Source: an uncultured Pseudomonadales bacterium (GTDB taxonomy: Bacteria > Pseudomonadota > Gammaproteobacteria > Pseudomonadales > Azotimanducaceae). From it: DNA of 64,000 bases. The position numbers and the translations under genes are program-made. Under the pieces are notes generated by a model, which made no database searches, had not been told where the DNA came from, and saw nothing but the letters and a program-made list of their open reading frames with translations. Shown here one piece after another: positions 9,598 through 37,164 of the stretch (position 1 is the stretch's first letter; the number at the start of each line of letters is the position of its first letter). Location of the stretch: positions 992,001-1,056,000 of the forward strand of contig OY282455.1 of NCBI GenBank assembly GCA_958296195.1, in the 5' to 3' direction.

Positions 9598-9633
9598 GAA
9601 TATTGCCAGTTTCCGCAAAAAGTGGGAATATTC
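9598..9633. promoter_or_regulatory. Imperfect palindrome upstream of an AAA_14 ATPase gene
   Basis: GAATATTgCCA (9598-9608) pairs with TGGgAATATTC (9623-9633), one mismatch in 11, with a further short TTT/AAA pairing inside. The 36-base palindrome ends 35 bases before the ATPase ATG. One of four such sites in this window (see 11172, 22153, 36782). Probably an operator or self-recognition site; inference. Confidence 0.5.
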
Positions 9634-9668
9634 TCGACCGAATTTCGGATCAAGAAGGCGTCGGCCAC

Positions 9669-11048
9669 ATGGCGGATTCACTCAAGGAGATCATTCTGGA
9701 TCATCAGGAGGCCGACCTGCCAACCGGCATTCCGCGCCGTGTGCAGGTGACGCCGGTGCCGGGCAAAGCCACCGTCTGCATCGGCCCCCGGCGCAGCGGC
9801 AAAACCACCCTCCTTTTTCAACTGGTTCGCCAATTGCAAAGCCAAGGCGTGCCGCGGCGGAATATCCTCTACCTGAACTTCTTTGACGACCGCCTGCGCC
9901 ACTTGCAGCAGCAAGGCCCCGCCCCAGTGCTGGAAGCGTATTTCTCCCTCCATCCAGAAAACAAGAGCCTGCCGCGGCGGCGCACGACAGGTCGCAACCC
10001 TCATGGAAACGACGCCCGAACCCTGCACTTCTTCTTCGACGAAATCCAGACCGTGCCCGGCTGGGAGGCGTTCGTGGAGCGGGCGATGCGCACGGAACGC
10101 TGTGAGCTGTACCTCACTGGTTCGTCGGCGCAAATGCTGTCCCGGGAAATTGCCACGCAAATGCGCGGTCGGGCGCTGTCTTGGGAACTCCTGCCCTTTT
10201 CCTTCCGTGAACATCTGGATTTTCTGGGCATTGACTGCGATGGCCCGCTTTCCACCCGCCGGCGCCTGCTGGTCGAGCAGGCGTTCGTCCGCTTCCTGGA
10301 GGTTGGCGGCTTTCCCGAAGTTGTGGCGCTGACCACGGCACTGCGCATCAAGACCCATCAGGAATACTGGGGCGCGATGCTGTTTCGGGATCTCATCGAG
10401 CGCCACGACATCGCCCATCCCCGCGCCGTTACCGATTTGGCCCATTGGCTGGTGGACAACGTCGCTTCCTTGTATTCCGTCAATCGGCTCACTGGCTACT
10501 TGAAATCCCTCGGCCATCGCGTTCCGAAAGCGGTGGTCTCCAGCTATCTGGAGTGGTTCGAGGACGCTTTCTTCCTGTTCACGGTGCGCATCTTTGACGC
10601 TTCTCTGGCCCGCGCCAACGCCAATCCCAAGAAGATCTACTGCATCGACCACGCGCTGGTGCGGTCCGTGTCCTCCGGCATTCTGGTCAACAGGGGGCAT
10701 CTGCTGGAGAACTTGGTGTTCACGGCGCTGCGTCGCGTCACCCCCGACATCCACTACTACAGGTCCAAAGCCGGTCGCGAAGTGGACTTCATTGCCCGGA
10801 TGCCGGACGGCTCGCTCCGGCTCGTGCAGGTGTGCGAGTCCTTGGCCGACCCGCGCACTCGGCGGCGGGAAGTCGCGGCGCTGCGGGACGCGATGGCGGA
10901 ACTGAACTTAGCGTCCAGCCAGCTAATCACCCGAGATTTGGACCAAGAGCAAATACCGACGGACAGCGGCGAGATCGAAGTTGTCGCGGCTTGGCGCTTT
11001 CTTCTAGACCTTGGCGGTCCCGAACCGCTGCGGTTCGCCGCCGAGTAG
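9669..11048 (+). CDS. Orphan AAA_14/DUF4143 ATPase (COG1373)
   Basis: A 459-residue ATP-binding protein of the AAA_14 plus DUF4143 type. Walker A 'GPRRSGKT' is at 39-46, Walker B 'LHFFFDEIQ' at about 122-130, sensor 'LYLTGSSAQML', and the C-terminal DUF4143 domain contains the nuclease-like 'YYRSKAGREVDFIARMPDG', where E-V-D-F resembles a degenerate PD-(D/E)XK core. I placed the start at 9669 (MADSLKEIIL), where family similarity begins; an in-frame ATG 66 bases upstream falls just inside the palindrome. Function of the family is unknown; solitary copies are common in genomes rich in toxin-antitoxin genes. Confidence 0.85.
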   Translation: MADSLKEIILDHQEADLPTGIPRRVQVTPVPGKATVCIGPRRSGKTTLLFQLVRQLQSQGVPRRNILYLNFFDDRLRHLQQQGPAPVLEAYFSLHPENKSLPRRRTTGRNPHGNDARTLHFFFDEIQTVPGWEAFVERAMRTERCELYLTGSSAQMLSREIATQMRGRALSWELLPFSFREHLDFLGIDCDGPLSTRRRLLVEQAFVRFLEVGGFPEVVALTTALRIKTHQEYWGAMLFRDLIERHDIAHPRAVTDLAHWLVDNVASLYSVNRLTGYLKSLGHRVPKAVVSSYLEWFEDAFFLFTVRIFDASLARANANPKKIYCIDHALVRSVSSGILVNRGHLLENLVFTALRRVTPDIHYYRSKAGREVDFIARMPDGSLRLVQVCESLADPRTRRREVAALRDAMAELNLASSQLITRDLDQEQIPTDSGEIEVVAAWRFLLDLGGPEPLRFAAE

Positions 11049-11271: not shown

Positions 11272-12669
11272 GTGAAGCAGGGTGAAATCCAACAAATACT
11301 GGTGGCGACCAACCGTTGGTGGCGCAACTCCCATGATTGGATGCGGGATGACCCGGACTTGCGCGAAGCCAACGAGGCGCCGTTTCGTTATTCGGCCGGC
11401 GTCCTCAAGGACTTGGCGCCCGGCGGCCTCCATGTTTTGCGTGGTCCCCGGCGGGTGGGCAAGTCCGTGGAGATTAAGCACGCCATTGGGCGTCTGATCG
11501 CTGATGGCGTCGAGTCAAGGCGCATCCTGCATGCTTCGGTGGATGGCTGGCGCGCCGCCGACCTAGGCCGGCTGGTCAACGCCGCCCGACAGTTGACGCC
11601 CGGCGACAGCCAGCGGTTTTGGTTCATCGACGAGGTGACCGGTATCACGGACGGTTGGCCGGAGCGCATCAAGTGGCTGCGCGACAACGACGGGCAATTC
11701 CGCAGGGACACGGTGGTGCTCACCGGCTCGTCGGCGGCCGACCTGACCGGTTCGGTGAAGGCGCTTGCCGGACGCCGCGGCCCGGTATCCCACGCGGACC
11801 GGGTGATGCTGCCAATGGGGTTCAGAACTTGGGCGGCGCTGACGGGGGAGCGTCCTCCGCCCGCCGACGTCGGCCCATACCGCGTGGCTGACTTAACCCC
11901 AAGGCGCCTTGTCGAAACTGCGCAAGAGCTGGTTCCTTGGCTGGATTGGCTGGTCTTGGCCTGGGACGCCTACTTGCAGGTGGGCGGCTTCCCCACCGCG
12001 GTCGCCAACCACATCCAGTTACGCGAACCCGCGCCGCCGTTCCTGGACAGTCTGCTTGACGTCATTCATGGGGATGCGTTTCGGCGGGCCGATTGGTCCC
12101 GCGTGCGGACCGCTGCGTTCCTCCGCCGGGTGGTGCAGGGGCTCTGCTCTCCGGTCAACTACGCGGCGTTGGCCGATGACCTCGACATTTCCCAACCAAC
12201 TGTTCGGCGGCGATTTGATGAACTTCGGGAGGCGTTCGTGGTCTGGCCGTGCCACCGGGAGGCGGAATTGCGCCCCAAGCTGAACGCCCGAGCCAAGGTT
12301 TACTTTGTGGATCCGGTTTACATGCGCCTCGCCGGGCTGTCGCCCGATGACAGCCTAGTTTCTGAGCAACAGCTAGGCATGGCGCTGCTGCGCAGCTTCG
12401 AGCGCGAACGGCCCGGTAGTTTCATGGAGTTCGACCAGGTGTTGCACCATCGCTCCAATACGCGCAGGGAAATCGATTTTGTCGGTCGCAACTTCGGCGG
12501 CGTCGCCATCGAATCCAAGCATGTTGACGGCCGCTGGCGCCGAGACGCACAGACGCTTCGGGCGTCCGTTTGGCGAGGAATCGTCGCCACCCGCTCGGAG
12601 CTTGATTTGGACGACGCCGAACTAATCGCCATGCCAACGGCTATGCTGGCTTGGCTGATGGATGACTGA
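11272..12669 (+). CDS. Orphan AAA_14-type ATPase, divergent
   Basis: A 465-residue P-loop ATPase related to, but clearly different from, its upstream neighbour. Walker A 'RGPRRVGKS' covers about 57-65, Walker B 'RFWFIDEVTG', sensor 'VLTGSSAADLTGSV', a winged-helix 'NYAALADDLDISQPTVRRRF' at about 298-317, and a C-terminal nuclease-like stretch 'RREIDFVGRNFGGVAIESKH' with the E-I-D ... E-S-K spacing of a PD-(D/E)XK fold. The GTG at 11272 follows AGGAG. It has no partner gene. The helix-turn-helix plus nuclease-like tail fits a DNA-acting protein; the actual role is unknown. Confidence 0.8.
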   Translation: MKQGEIQQILVATNRWWRNSHDWMRDDPDLREANEAPFRYSAGVLKDLAPGGLHVLRGPRRVGKSVEIKHAIGRLIADGVESRRILHASVDGWRAADLGRLVNAARQLTPGDSQRFWFIDEVTGITDGWPERIKWLRDNDGQFRRDTVVLTGSSAADLTGSVKALAGRRGPVSHADRVMLPMGFRTWAALTGERPPPADVGPYRVADLTPRRLVETAQELVPWLDWLVLAWDAYLQVGGFPTAVANHIQLREPAPPFLDSLLDVIHGDAFRRADWSRVRTAAFLRRVVQGLCSPVNYAALADDLDISQPTVRRRFDELREAFVVWPCHREAELRPKLNARAKVYFVDPVYMRLAGLSPDDSLVSEQQLGMALLRSFERERPGSFMEFDQVLHHRSNTRREIDFVGRNFGGVAIESKHVDGRWRRDAQTLRASVWRGIVATRSELDLDDAELIAMPTAMLAWLMDD

Positions 12670-12805: not shown

Positions 12806-13453
12806 GTCAAGAACAAGCGAGTTGTCCGGTATTTTGATCACGCTAGTTGTCCGGTCACTTAAAGTCATTTCTCAAGTTTTCTCATGCGACCTTCACGCGC
12901 CCCTTTGGGGTGTTTTGTTCGGGATGGGCCGTCCGTCCCCGTCGTGCTGCGAGAGCTTGCGGGGCCTGTGCCAGATGGACAGCGCACCGTCCAGGTGGCG
13001 CTTCATTGACACGCGCACCTTGTGGTGGGTCGGCCGGGGGATTTGCAGCGCCGTGCCCCCAAAGCTCACGCAATTGTCATTCGCCACGGTGCGCTCGTGC
13101 GACTCGCACAGCACCCCGTCGAGCAGTTCCGGAACCACCAAGGGCATGAAGGCCGTCTCCCCGTCGAGCCGGGCCTTTCCACCAGCGCGACCACCCCGCC
13201 GTCCCTGTAGCGCTCCGTCCAGCGCCGCATCGTCCGGCCGCTCACGCCCAGCAGCCGGGCCGCCTCCTCCTGGGTGACGAAACGCTCGGCCCATATCGAG
13301 TGCGCATCCTCAAACAACATCCTTCGCCTCTCTTCGCTCACAGACCCTCGGCCCATCAAACCGCTCCTTTTGGGGAAAAGAAGCAGCATCAAGAACCAAT
13401 GCGGACCGGACAACTAGCGTGAGCTCAGATCGGACAACAAGCGTGTTCCTGAC
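12806..13453. mobile_element. Decayed insertion sequence with about 50-bp terminal inverted repeats
   Basis: The left end (12806-12856) and right end (13404-13453) are long imperfect inverted repeats. Each holds two copies of a GTTGTCCGGT-type box, and the inner part TCACGCTAGTTGTCCGGTC is a perfect 19-base match between the ends (12838-12856 and 13404-13422). Between them is one damaged transposase gene on the minus strand. At about 650 bp the element is too short for a complete IS with an intact transposase, so it is an internally deleted, non-autonomous copy. The flanks hold a truncated gene fragment on the right. Confidence 0.75.
12893..13356 (-). pseudogene. Transposase remnant (HTH start joined out of frame to the C-terminal tail)
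   Basis: The gene starts at the ATG at 13356 (after AAAAGGAG), with 'MGRGSVSEERRRMLFEDAHS' and a clear helix-turn-helix 'VTQEEAARLLGVSGRTMRRW'. After about 55 codons the frame fails. In another frame (from about 13180 to the stop at 12893) there is the typical tail of IS481/ISNCY-like transposases: 'VLCESHERTVANDNCVSFGG', then 'MKRHLDGALSIWHRPRKL'. The whole DDE catalytic core is missing. It is therefore an internal deletion with a frame change and cannot transpose itself. Confidence 0.75.
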
Positions 13454-13608
13454 AGCGCCGTTTCGAGCGCAAGGAAGATGTTCGGGAGTCGTTACAGCGG
13501 CTGCACCCCATACACATGGACACCATGCAGGCGCGGCCCATTAGCCAGGACGACGAATTACTGCTCTATGTCGAGGTCAAGAGGATTATGGGCGGCATCG
13601 CCAGTTAG
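13454..13608 (+). pseudogene. 3' end of an unrecognised gene, truncated at the insertion sequence
   Basis: Directly after the right end of the IS an open frame reads 'RRFERKEDVRESLQRLHPIH', then 'QDDELLLYVEVKRIMGGIAS' and a TAG at 13606. No start codon and no continuation on the left side of the IS is seen. The amphipathic, charged sequence looks like real protein, but I do not recognise the family. Its last codons overlap the decayed 3' end of the PqqD-like gene on the other strand, marking a rearrangement junction. Confidence 0.35.
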
Positions 13609-13871
13609 CACCCGCCAAGGAGCCGCCGATTGCCGTGCAGATTTCGGCGGCGGGCCTGGCGGTTCCGCACAAGGTCCAGATTTTCTTGGCGACCGAATCG
13701 AGTTCGTAGTACTTCCCCTCGTCAACGTCCATCATGACGATGGCGTCGTCGAGATCCGTGAAGATGATGGCCCTCGTTGCGCACCACCTGGGAGGTGAGT
13801 TCGATGATTACGTCTGGTTGAGTTGAGGTGTCGCGGTCGCTTTGGCTGTTGGGCGTATCCTTTGACATCAT
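13586..13871 (-). pseudogene. PqqD-like RiPP recognition protein (lasso B1 type), frameshifted and truncated
   Basis: From the ATG at 13871 the frame reads 'MMSKDTPNSQSDRDTSTQPD' and 'VIIELTSQVVRNEG', then breaks. Removing one base near 13767-13772 restores 'IIFTDLDDAIVMMDVDEGKY' and 'YELDSVAKKIWTLCGTARPA', the hallmark of PqqD-like RiPP recognition elements that hold the precursor leader for the maturation enzymes. The normal last 20 or so residues are lost at the junction with the neighbouring fragment, giving a stop at 13586. It sits 27 bases after the sulfotransferase gene, in line with the kinase operon. As sequenced it cannot make a full protein; a sequencing error could explain the frameshift but not the missing end. 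Confidence 0.7.
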
Positions 13872-13898
13872 GGTTTCTCTCGGAAAATCGTCTTCGGT

Positions 13899-14840
13899 TC
13901 AGGCTTGTCTGTTAGAAAATACCCTCGTGGATCCTTGGAAAGGTCCACCCGCCGCCGGCCCCGCTTCCGCGCCCCCACCGTCCCCGGCCAGGAACGCCTC
14001 GGCGTCCCGCAGATAGCCGAACCGACCCATGACCGGCCCGTGCGCGTCCACCAGCGCCCGCACCTGCCGCGGGCAGAGCGCGGTTCGCCAGGATCCCGCC
14101 ACGCCGGCCCGGAAGAAGGATGGCGACGTCGGCTGCTTCTCCTGGAACCTGGTTTTCTCCGCCTGGGCGCGCAAACGGGGGAAGGCGGCGTGGTCAATGG
14201 CCCGCGCGAGGCGCGCGGCGTCCCAATCAAGGCCGGCGAAGCGGACGATCGCGCCGAACGCGACCCGTGGGTTCGCCAGCAGATCCTCATACCGCGTGAC
14301 ATGCACCGGCAGTTCCCCTTGATCCAACCAACTCGACACATGCCCGCTCCACATCAGCAGCGGGATCGGCAACCAGGTGGAAAGGCGGCGCCGGGCTCCC
14401 TCTAATTCGGCAGTGGGGTCGTTCATGAACGTCACGATCTCGTCAATGGTCTGATTCCTGTGGTGCGCGTAGGAAACCACCACGTCAAGGGGATTGCGGA
14501 CCAGATAGATCACGCCGGCAGTGGCCGTCTTCGGGAACAGGGCCGCGCCGCTTGGCGCGTGGACGTATGCCTCGTGGACTTTGACGAAGGCCGGTGGCGG
14601 CGTGGCCTCGGCCAGGGCCTCGTGCAGCAGCGGGCGGTGGCGCAGGATTTCCTCCGGCGTCATGTCCGACGACGGTAGCCCTACGTACTCGTCGAACGTA
14701 TGGCGGGAGCTAGCGGCGGACCAGCCGATCAGGGCGTTGATTGAAGCCGGCTCGCCGGCCTCGTCCAAGTAGTTGGTCAGCACCGCCCGTAGCCAGGTGT
14801 TGCCAGACTTCGGGTAGGAGGCGAGCCAGAAGATGGACAC
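13899..14840 (-). CDS. PAPS-dependent sulfotransferase (RiPP cluster)
   Basis: A 313-residue sulfotransferase. The N-terminal 'IFWLASYPKSGNTWLRAVLT' holds the 5'-phosphosulfate-binding loop (YPKSGNTW) of PAPS, and 'GVIYLVRNPLDVVVSYAHHR' is the 3'-phosphate-binding motif; 'ARLRAQ... FFRAGVAGSWRTAL' matches the family's C-terminal nucleotide loop. I chose the GTG at 14840, which sits about 5 bases after AAAGGGAG; another GTG lies two codons earlier. It follows the kinase gene by 17 bases in the same operon. The likely job is O-sulfation of Tyr, Ser or Thr on the cluster peptide, whose cores contain Tyr-Tyr; that target is inferred. Confidence 0.85.
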   Translation of the reverse strand: MSIFWLASYPKSGNTWLRAVLTNYLDEAGEPASINALIGWSAASSRHTFDEYVGLPSSDMTPEEILRHRPLLHEALAEATPPPAFVKVHEAYVHAPSGAALFPKTATAGVIYLVRNPLDVVVSYAHHRNQTIDEIVTFMNDPTAELEGARRRLSTWLPIPLLMWSGHVSSWLDQGELPVHVTRYEDLLANPRVAFGAIVRFAGLDWDAARLARAIDHAAFPRLRAQAEKTRFQEKQPTSPSFFRAGVAGSWRTALCPRQVRALVDAHGPVMGRFGYLRDAEAFLAGDGGGAEAGPAAGGPFQGSTRVFSNRQA

Positions 14841-14857
14841 GGACACTCCCTTTGACG

Positions 14858-15820
14858 TCACCCGGAAGCACCGACCGCAGGCGAGCCCGTCTCGGCCTCG
14901 CACTCGCCCCGGTCGTGCTCCCGCAAAAACCGCTCGATTTCGTCCGCCAGCGGATTGATCTGGAACGGGTAGGTGGGCCGCTTCACTCGGACGACCGGCA
15001 CCTGCCTCACCATGGCCGCGACGGTGCGAAAATGCACCTGCCTCTGGTCGAGCCCGTGTAGGTATCGCTTGCGGTAGGTATTTTTCAACAGACACTTGAA
15101 TGCCGTGTGGATTGTACACGTCTCGATCTCGATGCCGCTCCGGTTGTGGGACGTCAGCGCGCAGGCGGCACGCACGGCCAGGGGGGTGGCGCGGAACCGC
15201 TCCACCGGCACCAGGTATTTCTCCATGTTCTCCCGCACTTTGCCCCGCGTCCGGGGCCACCAGACCAATTCGTCCAGGGCGTCCGCCCACAGGCGCACGG
15301 TGGGAAACGCGGACAACGCCGTCGGACGTCCGCCGGGGTCCAGGACGACGCCGGTGACGTCGTCGGCGAGCATGGCGTGCCCCCGTTGCAGCGTTGTCGC
15401 GAGCAGCGAAGACTTGCCGCTGCCGGAGGGGCCGAGAAACAACACGGCACCCGCCCGGGTCTCGATGGCGCTGGCGTGCAGGGTGACGACGCCCCGCTGC
15501 TGCAACAGCGCGGCAAACACCGAGCCGGTGAGAAACACGCTCACGTCCTGATCGCCGCCGCGCGGTTCGACCAGGATGTTGCGGCCTTCCGTGACCAGAT
15601 ACCGGGCCACCCCGTCCACGTTGAGCAGGAACGCACCGGGTGTGCTTTCCCAAAGCCTGGTTTTGTCGACGGGCGTGGGCAGGGCCGCGGGCACTGCGCC
15701 GACGCGAATGACGACGTCCGGCTCGTGCGCTGGGGCGCTGGGAGAGGGAACAAAGGGCAGGGCGATGGGCGATTGCACCCGCAACCCGTAGGCCGTGTAG
15801 TGGTGGAGTGCGCGGCTCAC
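14858..15820 (-). CDS. HprK-like kinase of lasso-peptide type
   Basis: A 320-residue protein of the HPr-kinase-like family found in lasso-peptide clusters. Walker A 'GPSGSGKSS' is at 130-138, preceded by 'VTLHASAIE' and followed by 'AMLADDVTGVVL', which supplies the Asp-Asp typical of the HprK active site. In the characterised relatives PadeK and ThcoK, such enzymes phosphorylate the C-terminal Ser of the lasso precursor. The larger precursor here (21288-21506) does end in Ser and the smaller (16121-16291) has a penultimate Ser, which fits. The GTG start overlaps the upstream hydroxylase-like stop as GTGA. The true HPr/PTS genes are absent, arguing against a sugar-regulation role. Confidence 0.82.
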   Translation of the reverse strand: MSRALHHYTAYGLRVQSPIALPFVPSPSAPAHEPDVVIRVGAVPAALPTPVDKTRLWESTPGAFLLNVDGVARYLVTEGRNILVEPRGGDQDVSVFLTGSVFAALLQQRGVVTLHASAIETRAGAVLFLGPSGSGKSSLLATTLQRGHAMLADDVTGVVLDPGGRPTALSAFPTVRLWADALDELVWWPRTRGKVRENMEKYLVPVERFRATPLAVRAACALTSHNRSGIEIETCTIHTAFKCLLKNTYRKRYLHGLDQRQVHFRTVAAMVRQVPVVRVKRPTYPFQINPLADEIERFLREHDRGECEAETGSPAVGASG

Positions 15821-16185
15821 GCGAGAATCGCTCCCGCGCCCTCGAACACCTTGAAGATAAAGTGGATGCGGTGCGTCAACGGGTGCGAGCCCTCCCCGTC
15901 CACATGGCGGTCGACTCCGTGGCCCGCCTCAAGCCTCGCCAACATCGCCTTGGGGTAGACCGGTTTGGTGTAGCCGTAGGGCAACGCCGCCTGCGCCATG
16001 ACCGGCAGCAGGATCCGCAGCCAAACCGCCCAGATGGGCCTCGAATAGAAACAGAGGGGCGTCCGATTGCCGTTGATGAACCGGAACACGACGTGGCGCG
16101 TAGAGACGAAGCAAAAGTAATCATTCTGACGGGTAATACTGGGTATTTTCGCGATCCCAGTTACTACTGCCCGATTCATTTTCAA
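15817..16185 (-). pseudogene. Aspartyl/asparaginyl beta-hydroxylase-like protein with an internal deletion
   Basis: A frame of up to 122 codons. 'LPYGYTKPVYPKAMLARLEA' then 'GHGVDRHVDGEG' and 'THRIHF' match the Asp/Asn hydroxylase family, with the H-x-D iron ligands seen in 'RHVD'. The family normally continues for about 70 more residues to a second ligand His and ends in a similar 'RIHFIF' strand. Here the first 'HRIHF' runs directly into 'IFKVFEGAGAILA', suggesting in-frame loss between two like-sounding RIH strands. The first 60 bases overlap the smaller precursor gene. A start at 16124 overlapping that gene's stop (ATGA) would need one frameshift to join this frame. Probably inactive. Confidence 0.5.
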
Positions 16186-16291
16186 CGACCTGCCCCAATC
16201 TTCTGATGGTGGGCTTGGTCCAAGGCTTTGGCGGGGCGGTCAGGCCTTCTGAAGCATGGGAACGCGGGGGGGGGGGGGGGGGGGGCGTCAT
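16121..16291 (-). CDS. Lasso-like RiPP precursor 2 (56 residues) with poly-Pro start
   Basis: A small gene: MTPPPPPPPRSHASEG, then 'PPKPWTKPTIRRLGQVVENE', then 'SGSSNWDRENTQYYPSE'. The leader motif W24-T-K-P27-x-I29-R matches the YxxPxL motif bound by PqqD-like proteins and the motif of precursor 1. Gly41 lies 14 residues after Pro27, exactly as in precursor 1, and is the likely core residue 1, with Glu8 of the core in position for an 8-membered ring. The 20-C run (16266-16285) encodes the prolines. Two starts exist: ATG at 16291 (in frame now) and ATG at 16298, better spaced from AGGAAG but out of frame unless the run is 19 C. The 3' half overlaps the hydroxylase-like frame. Confidence 0.6.
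   Translation of the reverse strand: MTPPPPPPPRSHASEGLTAPPKPWTKPTIRRLGQVVENESGSSNWDRENTQYYPSE
16266..16285. repeat. 20-nt poly-G (poly-C on the coding strand) tract
   Basis: An uninterrupted run of 20 G on the plus strand just inside the start of precursor 2. Runs of this length are slippage hotspots; each one-base change moves the downstream peptide into or out of frame. The exact count is the least certain kind of base call. Confidence 0.85.
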
Positions 16292-16573
16292 AAGTCATGG
16301 CTCATCTTCCTGATCGTTGGTTGAAATGAAGAATCATATCTCTGCTCCTCGGAGGAGGGGGAATATAGAACATCGCGTCTGCTAGGTGAAGGTTCCCAGA
16401 TTCCCTGTTAAGGCTCCGAAGAGGGTGTCTCAGGCTGTTGGGCTGTCATTGAGGGCAGTTCGGGACGAGGAGTGCCTTGTCGCGCTTGCGAAGAAGGGCG
16501 GGGAAGTGCGCCGAGGGCATGGCGGATGCCTAGCTGGAGTCGATGCGTCGGCGCATCCCCGCATGCAGCGGCG

Positions 16574-16723
16574 GGCACTTTGACGCTGACGCTGCACGTA
16601 CACATAATGTCGACAACTTGAGCTGCGCCGGATTCTCATGGACTTGAAACAAATCGAAAGCGAGAGCCCTGCTTCGGTAAACTACACCTTTCGCCCGGCG
16701 GCGGAATCCGAGCACCTTGAGTC
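16574..16723 (+). pseudogene. Collapsed copy of an antitoxin/ParE locus
   Basis: This stretch matches 56783-57115 base by base at both ends but lacks the middle. The upstream region and first codons of the antitoxin (GCACTTTGACGCTGACGCTG..., ATGGACTTGAAACAAATCGA) run up to GAAAGCGAG. The sequence then jumps to the end of the antitoxin (AGCCCTGCTTCGGT) and the first 16 codons of the toxin before a TAA. The jump lies between two GAAAGCGAG repeats that flank the lost part in the intact locus. It is thus a deletion relic, not a gene; the conserved part includes the promoter region. Confidence 0.8.
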
Positions 16724-16750
16724 TTAAACCGCGACTCCCAGCGCAACCCA

Positions 16751-18628
16751 GTGAACCCCATCTGCGGCATCTGTTCCCTAGGCGACCCGAGCGGACTGAA
16801 TGCTATGCTGGCGGGGCTTGCGCCGGCGGCCCCCGGCGGCGATTGGACAGACCCGAACGTCGGCGTGGGCCTCGGCTTTGCGCGCAGCCGTTTCACGCCG
16901 TTGGCCGAGGCGCTGCATTTCGACCGCGAGGCGGGCTTGGCCGCCGTTGTCGATGCTCGCCTTGACGACCGCGCAGGGTTCTGCGACGCACTCGGCCTAC
17001 AACGCTCCGAAGGCGCCGCTCTTGCCGATGGCGAACTGCTGTTGCGCGGCTACAAACGTTGGGCGGGCGAGCTCCCGAAGCACCTGTTCGGCGACTACGT
17101 CTTCGCCATCTGGGACGCTCGGAAACGAGTGCTCTTCCTCGCCCGCGACCCGATGGGTGTGAAGCCCTGCTACTACTCGTACTCCGCGGCGACGCGGCGT
17201 TTCGCGTTTGCCGGCCTGTTGGACGCCGTGCTGGCCGCGCCGTGTGCGTCCGCCGAACTTGACGAGGCCGTAGTGGCGCGGTCGCTGACACGCACTGGGC
17301 TGCATGACGCCGAGCGCACATTCTTTCGGGACGTAAGCAAGCTGCCGCCCGGCCACTCGCTTACCTTGACCGTCGGTCCTGCCGAACGATTCACCATTGC
17401 GTTGGCGCGTCACTGGCAGCCGGAACAGGCGGCCGCGGTGCGACGCTCCTCCGACGACGACTACGCTGAGGAGTTTCTGTCCCTCTTCACGCAGGCCGTG
17501 GCCACGCGGCTGCAAGGCGCAGACCCCATTGGCGCACATTTGAGCGGCGGCCTGGACTCCTCCAGCATCGCCGTGCTGGCCGCACGAGAGCTGCGCCATT
17601 CAAACCGACCGGCGCCGCTGACCTTCAGTTGGTTGCCGGATTTGGTCGGCAAGCCGCCGAGCGAAACGTACGCTCCCGAATACGAAGCCATTGACGCTGT
17701 ATGCCGTCAGGAAGGGCTTGCGGCCTTCCATTGCGCCCCAAAGGCCGACGATCTGGTTAGGGTGCTGCGCCTTGATGGGGCTCGGCCGGGGGTACACGTT
17801 CTGGCGAGCGAAGAAGTAGTGCAGCGTCGCGCCGCGGAGCAAGGCGTACGGGTGCTGTTGTCCGGCTGGGGCGGAGACCAAGGCGCATCGTTCAACGGTC
17901 GCGGCCACCAAGCGCATCTGCTGTTGAGCGGGCGTTGGGGCCAACTCGCCGCCCACGGCCGTGTGCTCGGCGCAGGCCGGCTCCAAACCTTTGCGGACGC
18001 GGCGCTGCCGCTGGTGCATCCCGACGCACGGCGGCGGCTCCGGCGGCTGCTGCGGGGGGCAATGCACAGCCGAGGCGATTTCAGCGACGAACCTTGGCTG
18101 TCGCGCTGGCTGGTGCATCCGGCTTTGGCCCGGCGCACCCATGTCCAGCCGAGGCGCAAGTCGCGCCTCTTCAACATGCGCGAAGCGCTGCTGTCGGGCC
18201 TTGGCGGCGGCGCCATCGTCGAACGCATTGAAGGCTGGGCCGCGGGCGGTGCGCAGCGCGGCATCGAATACCGCTATCCGCTGCTGGATCGCCGCCTGCT
18301 GCAGTTCGTGCTGGGCTTACCGCCGGAGCAGTTCCTGCGCGGCCAGTGGAACCGCTGGCTGATGCGCCATGCGCTGCGGGGCGTCCTCCCCGCGTCGATC
18401 CTGTGGAGTCGCAGCAAGACCGACCCGGCTCGATACGACTCGATGTTCGATGCCTTCGCCGCCGCCCTGCCCTTGGCGCGCCGACTGCTCGAGGAGTGCG
18501 GAGCTCCGCCACCCCGAGCGCAGTATGTGGACCTGCCGCGCCTGCTCGACAGGCTGGATGCGGCCCGCTTCCGCGTCGAACCGCGCTGGGAGTCAATTCG
18601 CTGCGCCTTGCAGTTCCTCGACTTCTGA
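16751..18628 (+). CDS. Asparagine-synthetase-like lasso cyclase (LasC/McjC type)
   Basis: A 625-residue protein with an N-terminal glutaminase-like domain (about 1-210) and a C-terminal ATP-pyrophosphatase domain. The PP-loop 'SGGLDSSS' is at 265-272, with 'LLSGWGGDQGASFNGRGHQA' and 'EYRYPLLDRRLLQFVLGLPP' further on. In lasso clusters this family adenylates an Asp/Glu side chain and closes the macrolactam. The start context is MNPICGIC: Cys is at position 5 rather than the N-terminal position 2 needed by true glutaminases, which fits a cyclase more than asparagine synthesis. The GTG start is unusual but no better one exists. It faces away from the kinase operon and toward the tailoring genes. 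Confidence 0.82.
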   Translation: MNPICGICSLGDPSGLNAMLAGLAPAAPGGDWTDPNVGVGLGFARSRFTPLAEALHFDREAGLAAVVDARLDDRAGFCDALGLQRSEGAALADGELLLRGYKRWAGELPKHLFGDYVFAIWDARKRVLFLARDPMGVKPCYYSYSAATRRFAFAGLLDAVLAAPCASAELDEAVVARSLTRTGLHDAERTFFRDVSKLPPGHSLTLTVGPAERFTIALARHWQPEQAAAVRRSSDDDYAEEFLSLFTQAVATRLQGADPIGAHLSGGLDSSSIAVLAARELRHSNRPAPLTFSWLPDLVGKPPSETYAPEYEAIDAVCRQEGLAAFHCAPKADDLVRVLRLDGARPGVHVLASEEVVQRRAAEQGVRVLLSGWGGDQGASFNGRGHQAHLLLSGRWGQLAAHGRVLGAGRLQTFADAALPLVHPDARRRLRRLLRGAMHSRGDFSDEPWLSRWLVHPALARRTHVQPRRKSRLFNMREALLSGLGGGAIVERIEGWAAGGAQRGIEYRYPLLDRRLLQFVLGLPPEQFLRGQWNRWLMRHALRGVLPASILWSRSKTDPARYDSMFDAFAAALPLARRLLEECGAPPPRAQYVDLPRLLDRLDAARFRVEPRWESIRCALQFLDF

Positions 18629-18738
18629 AGCGCAGGGAAACACAAGCGGCAATCAGCCCATTGCTACGTCCACAGGGCAGCCGGCCGCCGACATCACTCA
18701 ACGGTGCGCTGGCGCCAGCTCGTGCGCTTGTTCTGCGG

Positions 18739-19485
18739 TCAGGCGCCGCCAGTCGCCGGCAATGTCCCAAGGCGGATGCGCGACCGCCAGTCCTGCGGAA
18801 TCGAGAAGCCTTGGCTCCAGCGGAACGTGTCCTCGCACAACACTCCGTGCCAGAACAGAGGCGCCTGGGCGGAGACGCGAAAGAAGTACGCGACGTCGGT
18901 GCGGTCCGGCACCACGATCATCTCGCCGGTGCGGGGGTCGATGTAGCGGAACGACGATCCGCCCGGCTGCGCCACCTGCACCAGGAACACCACCCAGCCG
19001 ACGTAGCCGAACCGGTCCGTGTGCCAGCCCCTGAACGCCCCCGGCGGATAGAACTGATCGCCCACGCAAGGGCACTTGCAGCCAAGGAAGCGATCCATGG
19101 CCCGACGCAACGGCGCAATGCGCGGCGAGGGATGCTTGAAGTGGCAGTTGGTTGACCCCATCGTCCATTCGTGGGGCTCCTGCACGGCGTTCGCCGGCCC
19201 CTTCGTCGCCTTCGATCGCACCCGCCGCCGCAGATAATTGGTGCCCGCATGGCGGCGCTCGAAGAACGCCATCAGCGGCACGTCCGGCGGCGCCAGTAGC
19301 CGGCGCCGCCGCTCGCCGAGTTCTTGCTCCGCACGAGCGAAGTGGTTGAGATCCAATTTCGTAGGCAGCGTCGCCAGGGAGCGACAGGTTTCGGCCACCT
19401 CCTCAAAGCCGGCGATGGCCTCAAAGGGAATGGCTAGGAACCAATCATCGCCCGCAGGTTCCGAACCGCGCCTGACCGCTTTCAT
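18739..19485 (-). CDS. Putative 2-oxoglutarate/Fe(II) oxygenase-like tailoring protein
   Basis: A 248-residue protein not firmly recognised. Its centre reads 'QFYPPGAFRGWHTDRFGYVG', then 'SSFRYIDPRTGEMIVVPDRT' and 'APLFWHGVLCEDTFRWSQGF'. The H-x-D pair in WHTD and the distal WHG, about 60 residues apart on a beta-rich stretch, resemble the iron-binding triad of double-stranded beta-helix oxygenases. It starts 7 bases after the sulfotransferase stop in a four-gene minus-strand run beginning with precursor 1, so it most likely modifies the peptide (for example hydroxylation). Family membership is inferred from motif spacing only. Confidence 0.5.
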   Translation of the reverse strand: MKAVRRGSEPAGDDWFLAIPFEAIAGFEEVAETCRSLATLPTKLDLNHFARAEQELGERRRRLLAPPDVPLMAFFERRHAGTNYLRRRVRSKATKGPANAVQEPHEWTMGSTNCHFKHPSPRIAPLRRAMDRFLGCKCPCVGDQFYPPGAFRGWHTDRFGYVGWVVFLVQVAQPGGSSFRYIDPRTGEMIVVPDRTDVAYFFRVSAQAPLFWHGVLCEDTFRWSQGFSIPQDWRSRIRLGTLPATGGA

Positions 19486-19492
19486 GCCGCCG

Positions 19493-20344
19493 CTACCCCA
19501 TCAGTTCGTAGCCGAAGTACGCCAAGGCATCTTCATGATCCCGGAACACCCGGTTGAACGCAGCCAGGTCGTCCGACTGCAGGCGTGCGAAGTGCCGTGC
19601 GTTCATGTCCGTCAACGGTTCGTCGTAGCTCTTCACCTTGATGCGCCGTCGCAGATTCAGGTCCGCAAGCTGCGGCGCCAGCGCACGAATCTCCTCCGCC
19701 ACGGCTTCCGGTGCCGCGCACATCCGCTCGTAGGTGAAGAACACGCCTTGGCCCCCCCATGCCTCGATGTTGCGCCGCTGCCACGCCAGGCAGTTGGTGG
19801 CATGGGCCGCGGCGGCCGCCGGCAGGCTCTTGCCGCGCTCCTCGAATTGGCGGAGGTAGCGTGGTGGGAAGCTCTTCCGGTAGTAGCGGCAGATACCTTC
19901 GCAAACGGCGTAGGGGTTGCGCACCATGAACAGAAACTTGGCGTTGTCGAAATGCCGGGCGAGCTGCTCCACGCACAGCATGTGCGACGGTGACTTGGTG
20001 ACGAACACCGAGGCGCGGGCGTCGGCGGCGTGGGCATGGAAGTGCCATGCCTTGCGGGTGCGCGGCCAGTCGTGGTTGCAGGGGTCCGCGAACAAATCGA
20101 TCCAGCGCGGCTCGGCGGCCCACAGCAGGCCGGGGAGCCAACCGTCCGGGCCGTGCGGCCGCCACGGCAGGGGGCCGGCGTAGCCGTGCGTCCTCTGTCC
20201 CTCCCGCGGCAGGCGCCAAACTGCGCGGCAGGCCTCCAGGGCGCCCGCCAGAAACGAAGAGCCGCTGTCGTTCGGGCAGACGACGAACAGGTGGGCGTCC
20301 AGCAGGCGGGCGAGGTCCCGGTTCGCGGCGGGGATGCGGTTCAT
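19493..20344 (-). CDS. Sulfotransferase family protein (second in the RiPP cluster)
   Basis: A 283-residue protein with a sulfotransferase fold. The PAPS 5'-loop region is 'LFVVCPNDSGSSFLAGALEA' and the 3'-phosphate motif 'NAKFLFMVRNPYAVCEGICR'; 'ASVFVTKSPSHMLCVEQLAR' lies between, as in protein-tyrosine or carbohydrate sulfotransferases. The ATG at 20344 overlaps the glycosyltransferase stop as ATGA; an upstream in-frame ATG at 20377 would overlap more. It differs strongly from the sulfotransferase at 13899-14840, so the pair may sulfate different sites, one perhaps on the sugar added by the preceding enzyme. Target is inferred. Confidence 0.75.
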   Translation of the reverse strand: MNRIPAANRDLARLLDAHLFVVCPNDSGSSFLAGALEACRAVWRLPREGQRTHGYAGPLPWRPHGPDGWLPGLLWAAEPRWIDLFADPCNHDWPRTRKAWHFHAHAADARASVFVTKSPSHMLCVEQLARHFDNAKFLFMVRNPYAVCEGICRYYRKSFPPRYLRQFEERGKSLPAAAAAHATNCLAWQRRNIEAWGGQGVFFTYERMCAAPEAVAEEIRALAPQLADLNLRRRIKVKSYDEPLTDMNARHFARLQSDDLAAFNRVFRDHEDALAYFGYELMG

Positions 20345-21264
20345 CGGCCTGTGGGTGCGCTCCGTTTTTCGCGCCACCGACTTCGGGCGGCGTCAATATG
20401 TGCCCGGGTCAGGCAGGCCGTGTAGGCGTCCGCCCACTGCCGGTACGCCGGGTGCGGCTTGTGCGCGGAGTTCCCTTCGGCCCAGCGCAGCATGGCCTGC
20501 GTCATCCAGGGCTTCACCGGCCCGGCGAAGTGCAGCGCCTTGGCGTCCTCCATCCGCCAGCCGGTACGGGCGCGAATCTCCGCCGCCATCGGCACCACGT
20601 AGTCGTAGCGCCAGTCCACCAGCGTTTGCCGGCCGGCGAAGTGGCGGTTCAGAACGAACTGGTCCGTGTGCTGCGTCGCCTGATCCCGCCAAGCCTTGGG
20701 CGACACTAGCGCCAGCAGCCCTTCATAGTGGCGCTCGTCCGCCAGCAGCCGGCCGTCGATCATCAGGAAGCCGCTGCCGAACGTGTGCTCCAACGCGCCG
20801 GCAGCGTGCGCCACCGGCGCGAACGTGGCGGCGTCCCGGCGCTGGCCGCGCAGACAGGCCTCGTCGCTTCGACAAAGCAGCAACGCCGGCGAACGGAACA
20901 GCTCGCCCACCGAGGCTTGGAACAGCACGTCGCTGTCGTAGAACAGCACCTTGCGGTAGCCACGCAGCCGGAACGCCTCCAGGCAGAGGAACTCGCCCAG
21001 GCGATGCGCTAGCCGCGGCTGCGCGGCGCCTAGGGCGTCAAGACGCCGCCGCAGCTCGGTCGATATCCGTTCGTAGCGGATGTCGCCGCAGGCCGCCTGC
21101 AGAAGCTCCCGTTGGCGTTCGGGGAGGCTGTCGTGGATGACGACGACATCGCCGTTGAAGTTGGGATGGCGGCGGCGGAAGGAGTCAATGGCGGTGAGGG
21201 CGCCGGGAACAAAGGACTTCGTGACGGCCGTGGTGAAGCAGACGGGTGCCGGCCGGGCGTCCAT
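20341..21264 (-). CDS. GT8-family glycosyltransferase (RiPP cluster)
   Basis: A 307-residue glycosyltransferase of the GT8 fold. The metal/nucleotide-sugar D-x-D motif is in 'KVLFYDSDVLFQAS', an acceptor-side 'FGSGFLMID' follows, and the family's C-terminal 'ALHFAGPVKPW' (H-x-x-G-x-x-K-P-W) is present. GT8 enzymes are retaining transferases using UDP-sugars. I chose the ATG at 21264 after GGGAAGGA rather than the GTG at 21282. It begins 24 bases after the precursor 1 stop and overlaps the sulfotransferase gene, so precursor, glycosylation and sulfation genes are co-transcribed. A glycosylated, sulfated RiPP is the natural reading. Confidence 0.8.
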   Translation of the reverse strand: MDARPAPVCFTTAVTKSFVPGALTAIDSFRRRHPNFNGDVVVIHDSLPERQRELLQAACGDIRYERISTELRRRLDALGAAQPRLAHRLGEFLCLEAFRLRGYRKVLFYDSDVLFQASVGELFRSPALLLCRSDEACLRGQRRDAATFAPVAHAAGALEHTFGSGFLMIDGRLLADERHYEGLLALVSPKAWRDQATQHTDQFVLNRHFAGRQTLVDWRYDYVVPMAAEIRARTGWRMEDAKALHFAGPVKPWMTQAMLRWAEGNSAHKPHPAYRQWADAYTACLTRAHIDAARSRWREKRSAPTGR

Positions 21265-21287
21265 CGGTCCTTCCCGCGACACGGGCG

Positions 21288-21506
21288 TCAGCTCTGAATG
21301 TAGTAGAGATGATCTTCCACAAGATCTGGGTCTCTAGAGGTTCCCGTTTCCTGCAAGTCGGCGTCTTCAATGAGCCGGAGCACCGGTTTGGACCACCGCT
21401 TCTTGCCGGCCGCATTCCCGCTCGCCCGGGCCTGCGGCGACTGGTCGGCTACTTCAGTGTGGGCATTTGACGTGTTCGGGGGGGGGGGGGGGGGGGAGGA
21501 TTTCAT
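21288..21506 (-). CDS. Lasso-like RiPP precursor 1 (72 residues) with poly-Pro start
   Basis: Reads MKSSPPPPPPNTSNAH..., then 'GKKRWSKPVLRLIEDADLQE' and 'TGTSRDPDLVEDHLYYIQS'. W38-S-K-P41-x-L43 is the YxxPxL leader motif recognised by PqqD-like proteins. Counting from it, Gly55 is core residue 1 and Asp7 of the core could close a 7-membered ring; if Thr54 is instead the usual -2 Thr, the core starts at Thr56 with Glu9 as acceptor. The C-terminal Ser72 is where PadeK-type kinases act. The ATG at 21506 follows GAAAGGCAG. The 19-C run at 21478-21496 encodes the prolines, and no other start lies downstream. First gene of the glycosyltransferase/sulfotransferase/oxygenase operon. Confidence 0.7.
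   Translation of the reverse strand: MKSSPPPPPPNTSNAHTEVADQSPQARASGNAAGKKRWSKPVLRLIEDADLQETGTSRDPDLVEDHLYYIQS
21478..21496. repeat. 19-nt poly-G (poly-C on the coding strand) tract
   Basis: Nineteen G on the plus strand, inside codons 4-10 of precursor 1. Any change not divisible by three puts the leader and core out of frame with the only start codon. Candidate contingency locus; run length should be treated as approximate. Confidence 0.85.
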
Positions 21507-21829: not shown

Positions 21830-22102
21830 ATGGCCACCAAGAGCGGAATGAACCCGGTGCATCCGGGCGAAGTGCTTCGCGAGGAACTCGACGAGCTTGG
21901 CGCCTCGGCGAACGCATTGGCCAAGGTAATCGACGTACCCACGAATCGAGTCACGGCAATCCTCAACGGCGAACGCGGCGTCACCGCCGACACTGCCCTC
22001 CGCCTCGGCCGCTACTTCGACACTACCGCACAGTTCTGGCTGAACCTACAGCAGACTTGGCAGAGCCGGCGGCGGAATTTCTGGCCGGCCTTGACCTTAT
22101 AA
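21830..22102 (+). CDS. higA: HigA-family antitoxin, C-terminus frameshifted
   Basis: A 90-residue HTH protein: 'MNPVHPGEVLREELDELGAS', 'NRVTAILNGERGVTADTALR', 'YFDTTAQFWLNLQQT', all typical of HigA (XRE-type helix-turn-helix). After 'LQQT' the frame gives 'WQSRRRNFWPALTL'. The alternative frame reads 'LAEPAAEFLAGLDLITPISQ', the expected family ending, so a small indel near 22058 has altered the last 15 residues. The DNA-binding core is intact, so it may still repress, but its toxin partner is broken. Kept as a CDS with that caveat. Confidence 0.75.
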   Translation: MATKSGMNPVHPGEVLREELDELGASANALAKVIDVPTNRVTAILNGERGVTADTALRLGRYFDTTAQFWLNLQQTWQSRRRNFWPALTL

Positions 22103-22198: not shown

Positions 22199-23353
22199 AT
22201 GCTTCCACGCATCGCTTACCTGAATCAACTCACTGCCGCTACGGCGCGGTCCCCGGTCACCGCGCTGCTGGGGCCACGTCAATGCGGGAAAACAACGCTT
22301 GCCCGCGAGTTTGCCGCAACCCGCAAATCCACCATGTTCGATTTAGAGTCCGAGCCGGACGTTCGGCGGCTTGCCAACCCTGAACTCGTCTTGGGCGGAT
22401 TGGATGGGCTTGTGGTCCTTGATGAGATGCAGCGGATGCCACAGCTTTTCGCCGTGCTCCGGGTGCTGGTGGACCGGCCCAACCGCAACGTCCGTTTCCT
22501 GATTTTGGGCAGCGCATCGCCGGACCTGGTGCGCGGCGCATCCGAATCCCTCGCCGGGCGGGTGGAGTTCATCGAACTGACTGGATTCGACCTGAGCGAG
22601 ACGGGGGACGACGCCTGGCGCAAGCTGTGGTTTCGGGGCGGGTTGCCCCGCTCCTACCTAGCGGCGTCAAGCGAAGACAGCGCAACTTGGCGCGACGGAT
22701 TCATCCGCACCTTCCTGGAGCGGGACATTCCGCAGTTGGGGATAACGGTGCCGGCGCCGGCCATGCGCCGATTTTGGACCATGTTGGCGCATTGGCACGG
22801 GCAAACTTGGAACGCCTCCGAGTTGGGGCGGGCGATGTCCCTCTCCGACAAAACCGTGCGCCGCTATCTGGACCTGCTAACGGGCACCTACATGATCCGC
22901 CAACTCCAGCCTTGGTTCGAAAACCTGGCCAAGCGCCAAGTGAAGGCGCCCAAGGTGTATCTGAGGGACCTCGGCTTGCTCCATGCCCTGCTGGGCCTCG
23001 GCGACGCCGCTGCGCTGCTCGCCCACCCCTGCGTTGGCGCCTCTTGGGAGGGTTTTGTCATTGAACAAGTCATGCGGGCCATGCGCCCGAACGAAGGTTG
23101 GTTTTGGAGCGCCCACAGCGGCGGCGAACTGGATCTTCTGATCATCCACAAGGGCCGGCGCATAGGCTTTGAAGTGAAGTTCAGCGAAGCACCGAAAATT
23201 GCCAAAACCACTCGCAACGTCGCCTCAGCCTTGGCTCTGGATCACCTGTTTGTGGTGTGCCCGACACCGACAGCTTATCCGGTGGATGACCGAATTACCG
23301 TGCTGCCCATCACGGAAGCCTCGAACCTCCGCGAGCGCATCGACTCGCTTTAG
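22199..23353 (+). CDS. AAA_14/DUF4143 ATPase (COG1373)
   Basis: A 384-residue protein of the short AAA_14-DUF4143 subtype. Walker A 'GPRQCGKT' at 25-32, Walker B 'GLVVLDEMQRMP' at about 71-82, sensor 'RFLILGSASPDLV', the subtype-specific 'FIRTFLERDIPQLGITVPAP', a winged helix ('ELGRAMSLSDKTVRRYLDLL'), and the DUF4143 tail 'FWSAHSGGELDLLIIHKGRR' plus 'GFEVKFSEAPK', where E-L-D and E-V-K fit a PD-(D/E)XK core. It is the closest relative in this window of the minus-strand gene at 35610-36782. Solitary; no toxin activity can be deduced. Confidence 0.88.
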   Translation: MLPRIAYLNQLTAATARSPVTALLGPRQCGKTTLAREFAATRKSTMFDLESEPDVRRLANPELVLGGLDGLVVLDEMQRMPQLFAVLRVLVDRPNRNVRFLILGSASPDLVRGASESLAGRVEFIELTGFDLSETGDDAWRKLWFRGGLPRSYLAASSEDSATWRDGFIRTFLERDIPQLGITVPAPAMRRFWTMLAHWHGQTWNASELGRAMSLSDKTVRRYLDLLTGTYMIRQLQPWFENLAKRQVKAPKVYLRDLGLLHALLGLGDAAALLAHPCVGASWEGFVIEQVMRAMRPNEGWFWSAHSGGELDLLIIHKGRRIGFEVKFSEAPKIAKTTRNVASALALDHLFVVCPTPTAYPVDDRITVLPITEASNLRERIDSL

Positions 23354-35609: not shown

Positions 35610-36782
35610 TCAGTCCATCGCCGCCAAGCGCTCCATGAGCGCCGCCAAGGGGATGGCAAGCGTGTTCGCGTTGAGGGGGAAACTGTCATCGCCCGAGTGG
35701 ACGACGAACCGCTCGGTTGCCCGTACGTCCTCCGCCGCCAAAGCAAAGCCCTTGCCGATGCGGGGCGTGGCGCTGCGCTTGACCTCAATGGCCCAAAGCT
35801 CGCGATTCGGCAGAAGCAAAAGAAGATCAATTTCCGCACCGGCTCGCGTACGGTAGAAGTAGGCGTCGGTTCCAAAGGGCGCTGCCGCGAGCAGGTTTTC
35901 GATTGAGAACCCCTCCCAACTGGCGCCCACCACCGGATGGGAAAGCAGGTCGTCATGGGTGCGCAGGCCGAGCAGTGAATGGAGGACGCCGCTGTCTCGG
36001 ATATAGACCTTGGGCGCCTTGACCAACCGCTTGCCCACATTGACGAAGTAAGGAGGCAGGCGCCGCACCAGCATCAGGTCCACCAGGAGATCTATGTAGC
36101 GCGTTACCGCCGGCATGGAGACGGCTAAGCTGCGCGCAAGTTCGGAAGCATTGAGCAGCCCGCCCTGATAATGGCCAAGCATCGTCCAAAGCCGCCGCAG
36201 GGTGGGCGCCGGCACACGCACACCAAATTGGGGAATGTCCCGCTCCAAATAGGTTCGGATGAAGTTGAACCGCCAACGCGCACTAACGACATCGCTCTTG
36301 GCGTTGAAGGTGTCGGGGAAGCCGCCGCGCACCCACAACCTTTGCTGCGCGGAACCCAGGCCGACTTCCAGAACGGTCAATCCGGGAAGTTCGTCGTAGA
36401 TGATGCGCCCGGCCAAGGATTCCGCCGATTGCCGCAGCAGCGCATCCGAAGCCGCACCGAGCAGGAGGAACTGCCCGGTGCGCCACCCCTGTCGGCGGCG
36501 CGAATCGATTTGCCCCCGCAAAACCTGAAACAGCCCCGGCATCCTCTGAATCTCGTCCAGAATCACTAACTGACCGACCTGAGCGTCGAGATACCGCATT
36601 GGGTCCGCAAGACGAGCGGCATCGCCGGGATTCTCCAGGTCGAGATACAGGCAGTCCGGCACATCGGCGGCGATGTCCCTAGCGAGCGTGGTCTTGCCGA
36701 CCTGACGCGGGCCGAGAAGGGCAACGGCCGGCGCTTCGGCAAGGCCGCGCAAAATTCTGCGCTTGGCGTGTCGTTCAATCAT
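35610..36782 (-). CDS. AAA_14/DUF4143 ATPase (COG1373)
   Basis: A 390-residue protein of the same short subtype as 22199-23353. Walker A 'GPRQVGKT' at 24-31, Walker B 'QLVILDEIQRMPGLFQ', 'RWRFNFIRTYLERDIPQFGV' and the tail 'YFYRTRAGAEIDLLLLLPNR' followed by 'WAIEVKRSATPRIGKGF' (E-I-D ... E-V-K, PD-(D/E)XK-like). The ATG at 36782 abuts a long inverted repeat (36782-36820). Apart from the shared subtype the sequence has diverged considerably from its neighbour, so the copies are not a recent duplication. Confidence 0.88.
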   Translation of the reverse strand: MIERHAKRRILRGLAEAPAVALLGPRQVGKTTLARDIAADVPDCLYLDLENPGDAARLADPMRYLDAQVGQLVILDEIQRMPGLFQVLRGQIDSRRRQGWRTGQFLLLGAASDALLRQSAESLAGRIIYDELPGLTVLEVGLGSAQQRLWVRGGFPDTFNAKSDVVSARWRFNFIRTYLERDIPQFGVRVPAPTLRRLWTMLGHYQGGLLNASELARSLAVSMPAVTRYIDLLVDLMLVRRLPPYFVNVGKRLVKAPKVYIRDSGVLHSLLGLRTHDDLLSHPVVGASWEGFSIENLLAAAPFGTDAYFYRTRAGAEIDLLLLLPNRELWAIEVKRSATPRIGKGFALAAEDVRATERFVVHSGDDSFPLNANTLAIPLAALMERLAAMD

Positions 36783-37038: not shown

Positions 37039-37164
37039 GTGAATCAACGCGCTCGCAACTGTTTGCAAGCCTTGACAACGGTTGCCGGCCGCAGCCCTTG
37101 CGCGGCTGAGTTGCGCAATTCTTGCCCCCCCCCCCCCCCCCCCCTAATGCACACGGGGCGATAA
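37039..37164 (+). other. Short frame interrupted by a poly-C run (possible small gene)
   Basis: A GTG at 37039, seven bases after GGGGAG and just below the promoter-like site, opens a 41-codon frame: 'MNQRARNCLQALTTVAGRSP', then 'CAAELRNSC', six prolines and 'LMHTGR'. The prolines come from the 20-C run. With 21 C the frame would continue about 85 codons past the run; with 19 C it would stop at once. No similarity to the RiPP precursors or to anything I recognise, so a real gene is only possible. The rest of 36821-37478 shows no gene. Confidence 0.25.
37125..37144. repeat. 20-nt poly-C tract
   Basis: Twenty C in a row on the plus strand, the third G:C homopolymer of this length in the window, in an otherwise gene-poor 700-base gap. 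See also 16266-16285 and 21478-21496. Confidence 0.85.

Follow-up and report, generated by a model that had tools for sequence, protein, structure and literature searches.

What does a lasso-peptide gene cluster do when its precursors open with long poly-C tracts and the cluster itself holds no leader protease? The locus that raises this question lies at 13586–21506 of a 64,000-nucleotide window, by which we mean the whole stretch of DNA that was analyzed (positions 992,001 to 1,056,000 of contig OY282455.1, GenBank assembly GCA_958296195.1), in the genome of an uncultured Pseudomonadales bacterium of the Azotimanducaceae. Our analysis suggests that this cluster belongs to a lasso-peptide system spread over about a dozen loci around the genome, in which a phase-variable repertoire of precursors would be served by a shared protease/exporter hub. 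We put the probability of this reading at about 0.72; a lasso-type system is likely, and phase variation of the precursors is well supported by the sequences.

In the proposed system, precursors sit with genes for GT8 glycosyltransferases, sulfotransferases, an HprK-like kinase and a hydroxylase, and many, though not all, lie beside a lasso-type cyclase. Most precursors of the source genome carry a poly-C tract of 12–33 nt right after the start codon, and replication slippage within the tract would shift the frame and so flip the precursor (in one relative, a cyclase) on or off. Precursors in the 'on' state would be recognized through a W-x-K-P-x-[ILV] leader motif, cut by a shared B1/B2 protease, closed into a ring between residue 1 and a Glu or Asp at positions 7–9, modified close to the C-terminal Tyr and Ser, and then exported. 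One B2, a nucleotidyltransferase and an ABC exporter would form the common hub. An initial annotation of the window had described the cluster as lasso-like with heavy tailoring, and every gene that it named is present where it was placed; the poly-C tracts and the genome-wide precursor set were absent from it.

Poly-C tracts lead into a genome-wide set of precursors

Both window precursors are encoded on the minus strand and begin in a proline run. Precursor 1 (16121–16291) starts M-T-Pro7, encoded from a 20-nt poly-C tract near its start codon (16266–16285, minus strand), and precursor 2 (21288–21506) starts MKSS-Pro6, encoded from a 19-nt tract in the same setting (21478–21496, minus strand). 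The 4.31-Mb source genome, assembled as one contig, has 38 G/C runs of at least 12 nt, and reading all frames around these tracts showed that many are followed by a short open frame encoding the leader motif of the window precursors.

The search model for precursors (A2) was built from the last 35–45 residues only, without the poly-C part, because circularity was to be avoided. A match was scored as tract-bearing when its coding strand held a run of at least 12 nt no more than 150 nt upstream. The search covered the source genome (G000) and four relatives (G058, OY282519; G059, OY282378; G060, OY282433; G061, OY282353), which are uncultured Pseudomonadales or Gammaproteobacteria. Tracts lie upstream of 39 of the 69 A2 matches, in four of the five assemblies; under random placement the mean did not exceed 0.012, and none of the 2000 trials per genome gave more than 1. 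The counts are 17 of 21 matches in G000, 14 of 18 in G058 and 7 of 20 in G061. None of 57 other relatives matched A1, a model that contains the Pro run, at E 1e-5. Nor did A2 match any of the 368 further genomes searched from this class, a weak negative with at most 20 first-look candidates scored per genome among those listed.

Leaders are conserved and cores diversify

Motif filtering of the loci fetched from the five genomes gave a set of 61 precursors (57 unique). Partial matches such as those at 424167, 2888088 and 133719 of G000 lie outside this set, yet are included in the A2 tract counts. The leader motif W-[ST]-K-P-x-[IL]-R, with a Gly 14 residues after the Pro, is exact in both window precursors, as the initial annotation had it (KPWTKPTIR with core GSSNWDRE... 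in precursor 1; KKRWSKPVLR with core GTSRDPDLVE...LYYIQS in precursor 2). In both, W-x-K-P-x-[IL] occupies positions −17 to −12. This is the register of the YxxPxL motif of BsfA in the available excerpts of PMC10368454, with W here in place of Y. Many other family members have, by eye, a Thr two residues before the Ser or Thr that precedes the Gly.

The cores share several features. Of the 50 unique cores anchored by [STAG]G, 39 carry an acidic residue (Glu or Asp) at position 8 or 9, whereas 5000 shuffles gave a mean of 13.4 and a maximum of 24. In precursor 1 this residue is Glu8; precursor 2 offers Asp7 and Glu10 but nothing acidic at 8 or 9. A C-terminal Ser is found in 52 of 57 unique precursors, and a Tyr is present among the final eight residues in all 50 anchored cores. 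The ratio of nonsynonymous to synonymous differences (pN/pS) is 0.51 for leaders and 1.34 for cores (85 non-independent pairs, ungapped cores), by which measure leaders are conserved while cores diversify. These core features would fit lasso closure, sulfation and phosphorylation, with the conserved Ser and Tyr suited to a kinase and to sulfotransferases. Kinases of the PadeK, ThcoK and SyanK kind are reported to modify a linear precursor at its C-terminal Ser, according to excerpts of PMC9266682 and PMC8498205.

Near-identical copies carry tracts of different assembled length

Like simple-sequence contingency loci, the precursors have a long homopolymer early in their coding sequence. As in such loci, too, copies that are otherwise identical within a genome have tracts of unequal length, subject to the accuracy of homopolymers in assemblies. 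Three tandem, near-identical units of ~750 nt in the source genome (L074, 204401–206073) encode the same precursor behind tracts of C17, C13 and C19, and their 150-nt flanks are identical; the right flank of the copy at 204547 equals the other two over 150 nt but matches at 282 of 350 positions further on. Copies at 420 and 2562 kb have C25 and C33, respectively, with 699 of 700 flanking positions identical (350 nt on each side); the GT8 and second sulfotransferase (ST2) copies at 2562 kb each match in two pieces, as if frameshifted. Two cyclase copies in G059 behave similarly, one with C13 and open (L099:10001-11872) and the other with C20 and frameshifted (L102:10010-11885), their flanks being identical at 698 of 700 positions.

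These copies bear on the possibility that slippage during transcription or translation, rather than replication, is what matters, so that each allele would yield a mixture of in-frame and out-of-frame products and tract length would tune dose. Long homopolymers can slip in transcription, and several precursors can be read from either of two starts that differ in frame, both of which would suit a dosing role. By itself, however, this leaves the length differences between identical-flank copies unexplained, and we regard it as unlikely.

Frame was scored from ATG or GTG starts preceded by a ribosome-binding-like sequence. On these provisional calls, 49 of the 61 precursors could be scored, 22 of them in frame and 27 not; another 2 have no such start and 10 have no tract of at least 7 nt; window precursor 2 is in frame in the assembly. 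Across same-kind precursors of different genomes, tract length runs from none to 33 nt. Because orthologs with a short tract or none retain the same leader and core, the poly-Pro segment seems dispensable.

Out-of-frame alleles would also be expected if these were ordinary degenerate lasso clusters, with out-of-frame precursors as pseudogenes and tracts as neutral expansions or assembly errors. The broken B1 and hydroxylase genes of the window, the split GT8 and ST2 copies at 2562 kb and the error-prone lengths of homopolymers are all in keeping with decay. Against it stand the recurrence of tracts upstream of the precursor matches in four of five assemblies, with a null near zero, and the contrast between conserved leaders and diversifying cores; we consider wholesale degeneration very improbable. 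Equally poor are the prospects of a functional poly-proline leader segment kept for the peptide without any switch. In its favor, the tract forms part of the leader, and in-frame alleles encode Pro there. Against it, the tracts consist of C alone although CCC makes up only 119 of 353 Pro codons in 14 window open reading frames (ORFs), the frame is lost in 27 of 49 scoreable alleles, and the 10 of 61 precursors that lack a tract of at least 7 nt otherwise resemble the rest.

Tracts were also seen beside other genes. A 24-nt G tract at 177475–177498 of the source genome (L072) lies just upstream of a same-strand GT8 gene, at a site with no precursor match, and maybe acts as a glycosyltransferase switch. 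A third poly-C tract in the window (37125–37144, 20 nt) lies ~335 nt upstream of a 512-residue ORF (37479–39017) that by eye looks like a secreted protein; this tract is possibly in a promoter region or an upstream ORF.

Cyclase, B1, B2 and the putative hub

The Asn-synthetase-like protein of the window (16751–18628, plus strand, with an SGGLDSSS PP-loop) was proposed in the initial annotation to be a lasso-type cyclase. Its best NCBIfam model is the lasso isopeptide cyclase NF033535, at 311.6 bits but below the curated cut-off of 525, versus 169.2 bits for the Asn synthase model, and we therefore rejected a housekeeping Asn synthetase. The N-terminus reads (V/M)NPICG, so the Cys of class-II (GATase-type) amidotransferases is not at position 2. 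A search of PDB sequences returned a hydroxyamidotransferase first and then Asn synthetases, all as partial matches (5 sequences). Two outcomes had been named in advance as fatal to a lasso assignment: a cyclase that groups with true asparagine synthetases, which is at odds with its best score being to the lasso model, and a genome devoid of B2, whereas one is encoded at 1215804–1216157.

This source-genome B2 (PF13471, 78.5 bits) lies 210 kb from the window cluster and is adjoined by a PF14907 nucleotidyltransferase. Each of the five genomes has one B2 above the cut-off, with one further sub-cut-off match each in G000 and G058; that each holds 7 to 13 cyclase-like genes beside it speaks for a shared protease. 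Open B1 genes matching PF05402 above the cut-off occur in the source genome at 681577, beside an ABC transporter, and at 4258434. Nucleotidyltransferase, B2 and ABC transporter lie together in all four relatives, and B2 shares one frame with the nucleotidyltransferase at one locus (L217) and apparently at another (L218). The corresponding genes of G000 are split between 1216 and 682 kb. GT8 and ST2 homologs often follow precursors in other cassettes. The natural reading of this arrangement is that one B2/exporter hub would be shared in trans.

A second kind of lasso-like cassette was seen in the source genome at 2126000–2138000 (L069), in two near-duplicate copies with their own cyclase type, PqqD and kinase-like genes, the leader WTEPRL and a poly-C tract upstream of each copy. 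These tracts, at 2126 and 2132 kb, lead into the kinase-like genes in no frame, and we make no claim for them.

Weighing the evidence

Several observations count against a phase-variable lasso system. Tracts precede only one of five A2 matches in G059 (a partial match) and none of five in G060, and 21 of the 38 G000 tracts lie away from precursor matches. Homopolymer lengths in assemblies may err by a few bases, which makes the frame calls provisional, and window precursor 1 is in frame from its nearer ATG and out of frame from a better-spaced start. Among the precursors, the [STAG]G anchor is absent from 7 of the 57 unique sequences, neither position 8 nor 9 holds Glu or Asp in 11 of the 50 anchored cores, window precursor 2 included, and both window precursors lack the Thr (or Ile/Val) of leader position −2, having Glu there with Gly1 taken as the core start. 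The lasso kinase BsfK acts on Ser3 and not on a C-terminal Ser (PMC10368454, in excerpt). Cyclase-like genes number 12, 7, 7, 8 and 13 in G000, G058, G059, G060 and G061 (E ≤ 1e-20), but these exact counts are soft because none in the five genomes exceeds the NF033535 cut-off and the same search was positive in 6 of 14 control genomes. There is no cyclase match within the 13–14 kb fetched around the precursors at 420, 457, 787, 2562 and 2982 kb, which would therefore need a cyclase in trans.

With these points taken into account, we retain phase-variable precursors served by a shared hub as the favored explanation. In its fullest form, ~20 independently phase-variable precursors, and sometimes cyclases, would feed one B1/B2/exporter hub, and a clonal population would show a combinatorial, randomly shifting blend of lasso peptides bearing phosphate, sulfate and sugar groups, as a kind of bet-hedging. 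We give this extension slightly better than even odds.

Gene content and state of the window cluster

Judged by its genes, the window cluster is real and of the lasso type, yet partly decayed. With the exception of the cyclase, its genes lie on the minus strand. The PqqD-like (B1) leader-binding gene is present but broken over two frames. A truncated C-terminal part (13586–13735) matches PF05402 at 29.2 bits over profile positions 4–39 of 67, and an N-terminal part lies in another frame (13722–13871), its translation resembling the start of the L070 PqqD. A sulfotransferase (ST1, 13899–14852; PF00685, 85.8 bits) has an 88% identical homolog in the 4250-kb cassette. The HprK-like kinase (14858–15820) was recovered as a weak match only, at 23 bits to HPr_kinase_C (cut-off 33.3) with further HprK-related matches, all below their cut-offs; its homologs adjoin other precursors, and it is predicted to act on the precursor, perhaps at the C-terminal Ser.

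Next to it lies the remnant of an Asp/Asn beta-hydroxylase (15817–16185) from which the N-terminus and an internal segment are missing. Over residues 5–108 of the query it is 50% identical to a protein (L214) that itself matches PF05118, and a by-eye comparison places both missing parts in the open hydroxylase frame of a relative (L203). The protein at 18739–19485 is possibly a 2-oxoglutarate–Fe oxygenase; this label rests on an H-x-D ... H pattern seen by eye, because the protein had no match in Pfam, NCBIfam or PDB sequences, and its single-sequence AlphaFold model failed (pLDDT, the predicted local distance difference test, 32.7). The GT8 glycosyltransferase (20341–21282; PF01501, 55.3 bits) comes immediately after precursor 2 on the coding strand, and next to it lies ST2 (19493–20377; PF13469, 50.4 bits), a recurrent partner of precursors and GT8. 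The Pfam cut-offs are exceeded by this GT8 and by both sulfotransferases.

The window cluster holds no B2 protease. With B2 missing, B1 broken and the hydroxylase only a remnant, the cluster is not self-contained, and we rejected a stand-alone lasso operon. The earlier picture of a lasso peptide with kinase, sulfotransferase and glycosyltransferase tailoring stands as far as the cyclase model, core spacing, C-terminal Ser and near-terminal Tyr are concerned.

To the left of the broken B1, the segment at 12880–13360 resembles, by eye, what is left of a transposase or helix-turn-helix sequence, and it may be a trace of how the cluster came to be truncated. ORFs at 9603–11048, 11272–12669, 22199–23353 and 35610–36782 resemble DUF4143-type AAA ATPases by eye, and a small ORF at 21830–22102 seems HigA-like.

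Comparison with known systems

Phosphorylated lasso peptides are described for clusters of the paeninodin/SyanA type (PadeK, ThcoK, SyanK) and for pseudomycoidin (PsmK, PsmN), as excerpted from PMC9266682 and PMC8498205. These clusters and the source genome have in common separate B1 and B2 proteins, an HprK-like kinase, a C-terminal Ser and a nucleotidyltransferase near B2. Some also include a sulfotransferase, as here, and such a gene is mentioned for Firmicutes lasso clusters (PMC8498205, in excerpt). Clusters of the paeninodin type are depicted as self-contained, and GT8, poly-C tracts and scattered precursors, all present here, go unmentioned for them in these excerpts.

The initial annotation knew of no description of the tailoring combination. 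Lassopeptide families of sponge symbionts, however, are already reported with sulfo-, glycosyl- and nucleotidyltransferases (PMC9426513, in excerpt), so tailoring alone is not new. Homopolymer tracts, scattered precursors and a shared protease are not mentioned for those families in the same excerpt, unlike the system described here. The accessions of the four relatives appeared in no paper of the open-licence literature searched, nor did a word search find them in three sponge genome notes; a sponge host would be no more than a guess. The gonococcal Nap bacteriocin-like peptides offer a different parallel: they are small and were judged likely phase variable from homopolymer tracts, but they are GG-leader peptides from a single island, their tracts being poly-G (6 to 12) or poly-T, and are not lasso peptides (PMC11798529, in excerpt). 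Among the open-licence papers listed in our searches, assessed mostly at title level, we found no report linking phase variation to lasso precursors or to those of other ribosomally synthesized and post-translationally modified peptides.

If the proposed system is real, natural-product profiles of uncultured bacteria would vary by frame switching, each cell might make a different peptide set, and annotation pipelines may miss precursors that happen to be out of frame. The family of 61 precursors would provide a ready test of one leader protease and several cyclases on diverse cores.

Prochlorosins are lanthipeptides with many scattered precursors, a conserved leader, a variable core and few processing enzymes. 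The source-genome set resembles them in its scattered precursors, in its conserved leaders and variable cores and in its few processing enzymes, and differs in that prochlorosins are lanthipeptides, for which we know of no frame switching. Surface structures are known to undergo phase variation, which has also been proposed for a few peptides. The bet-hedging chemical repertoire suggested here can be likened to phase-variable surface antigens.

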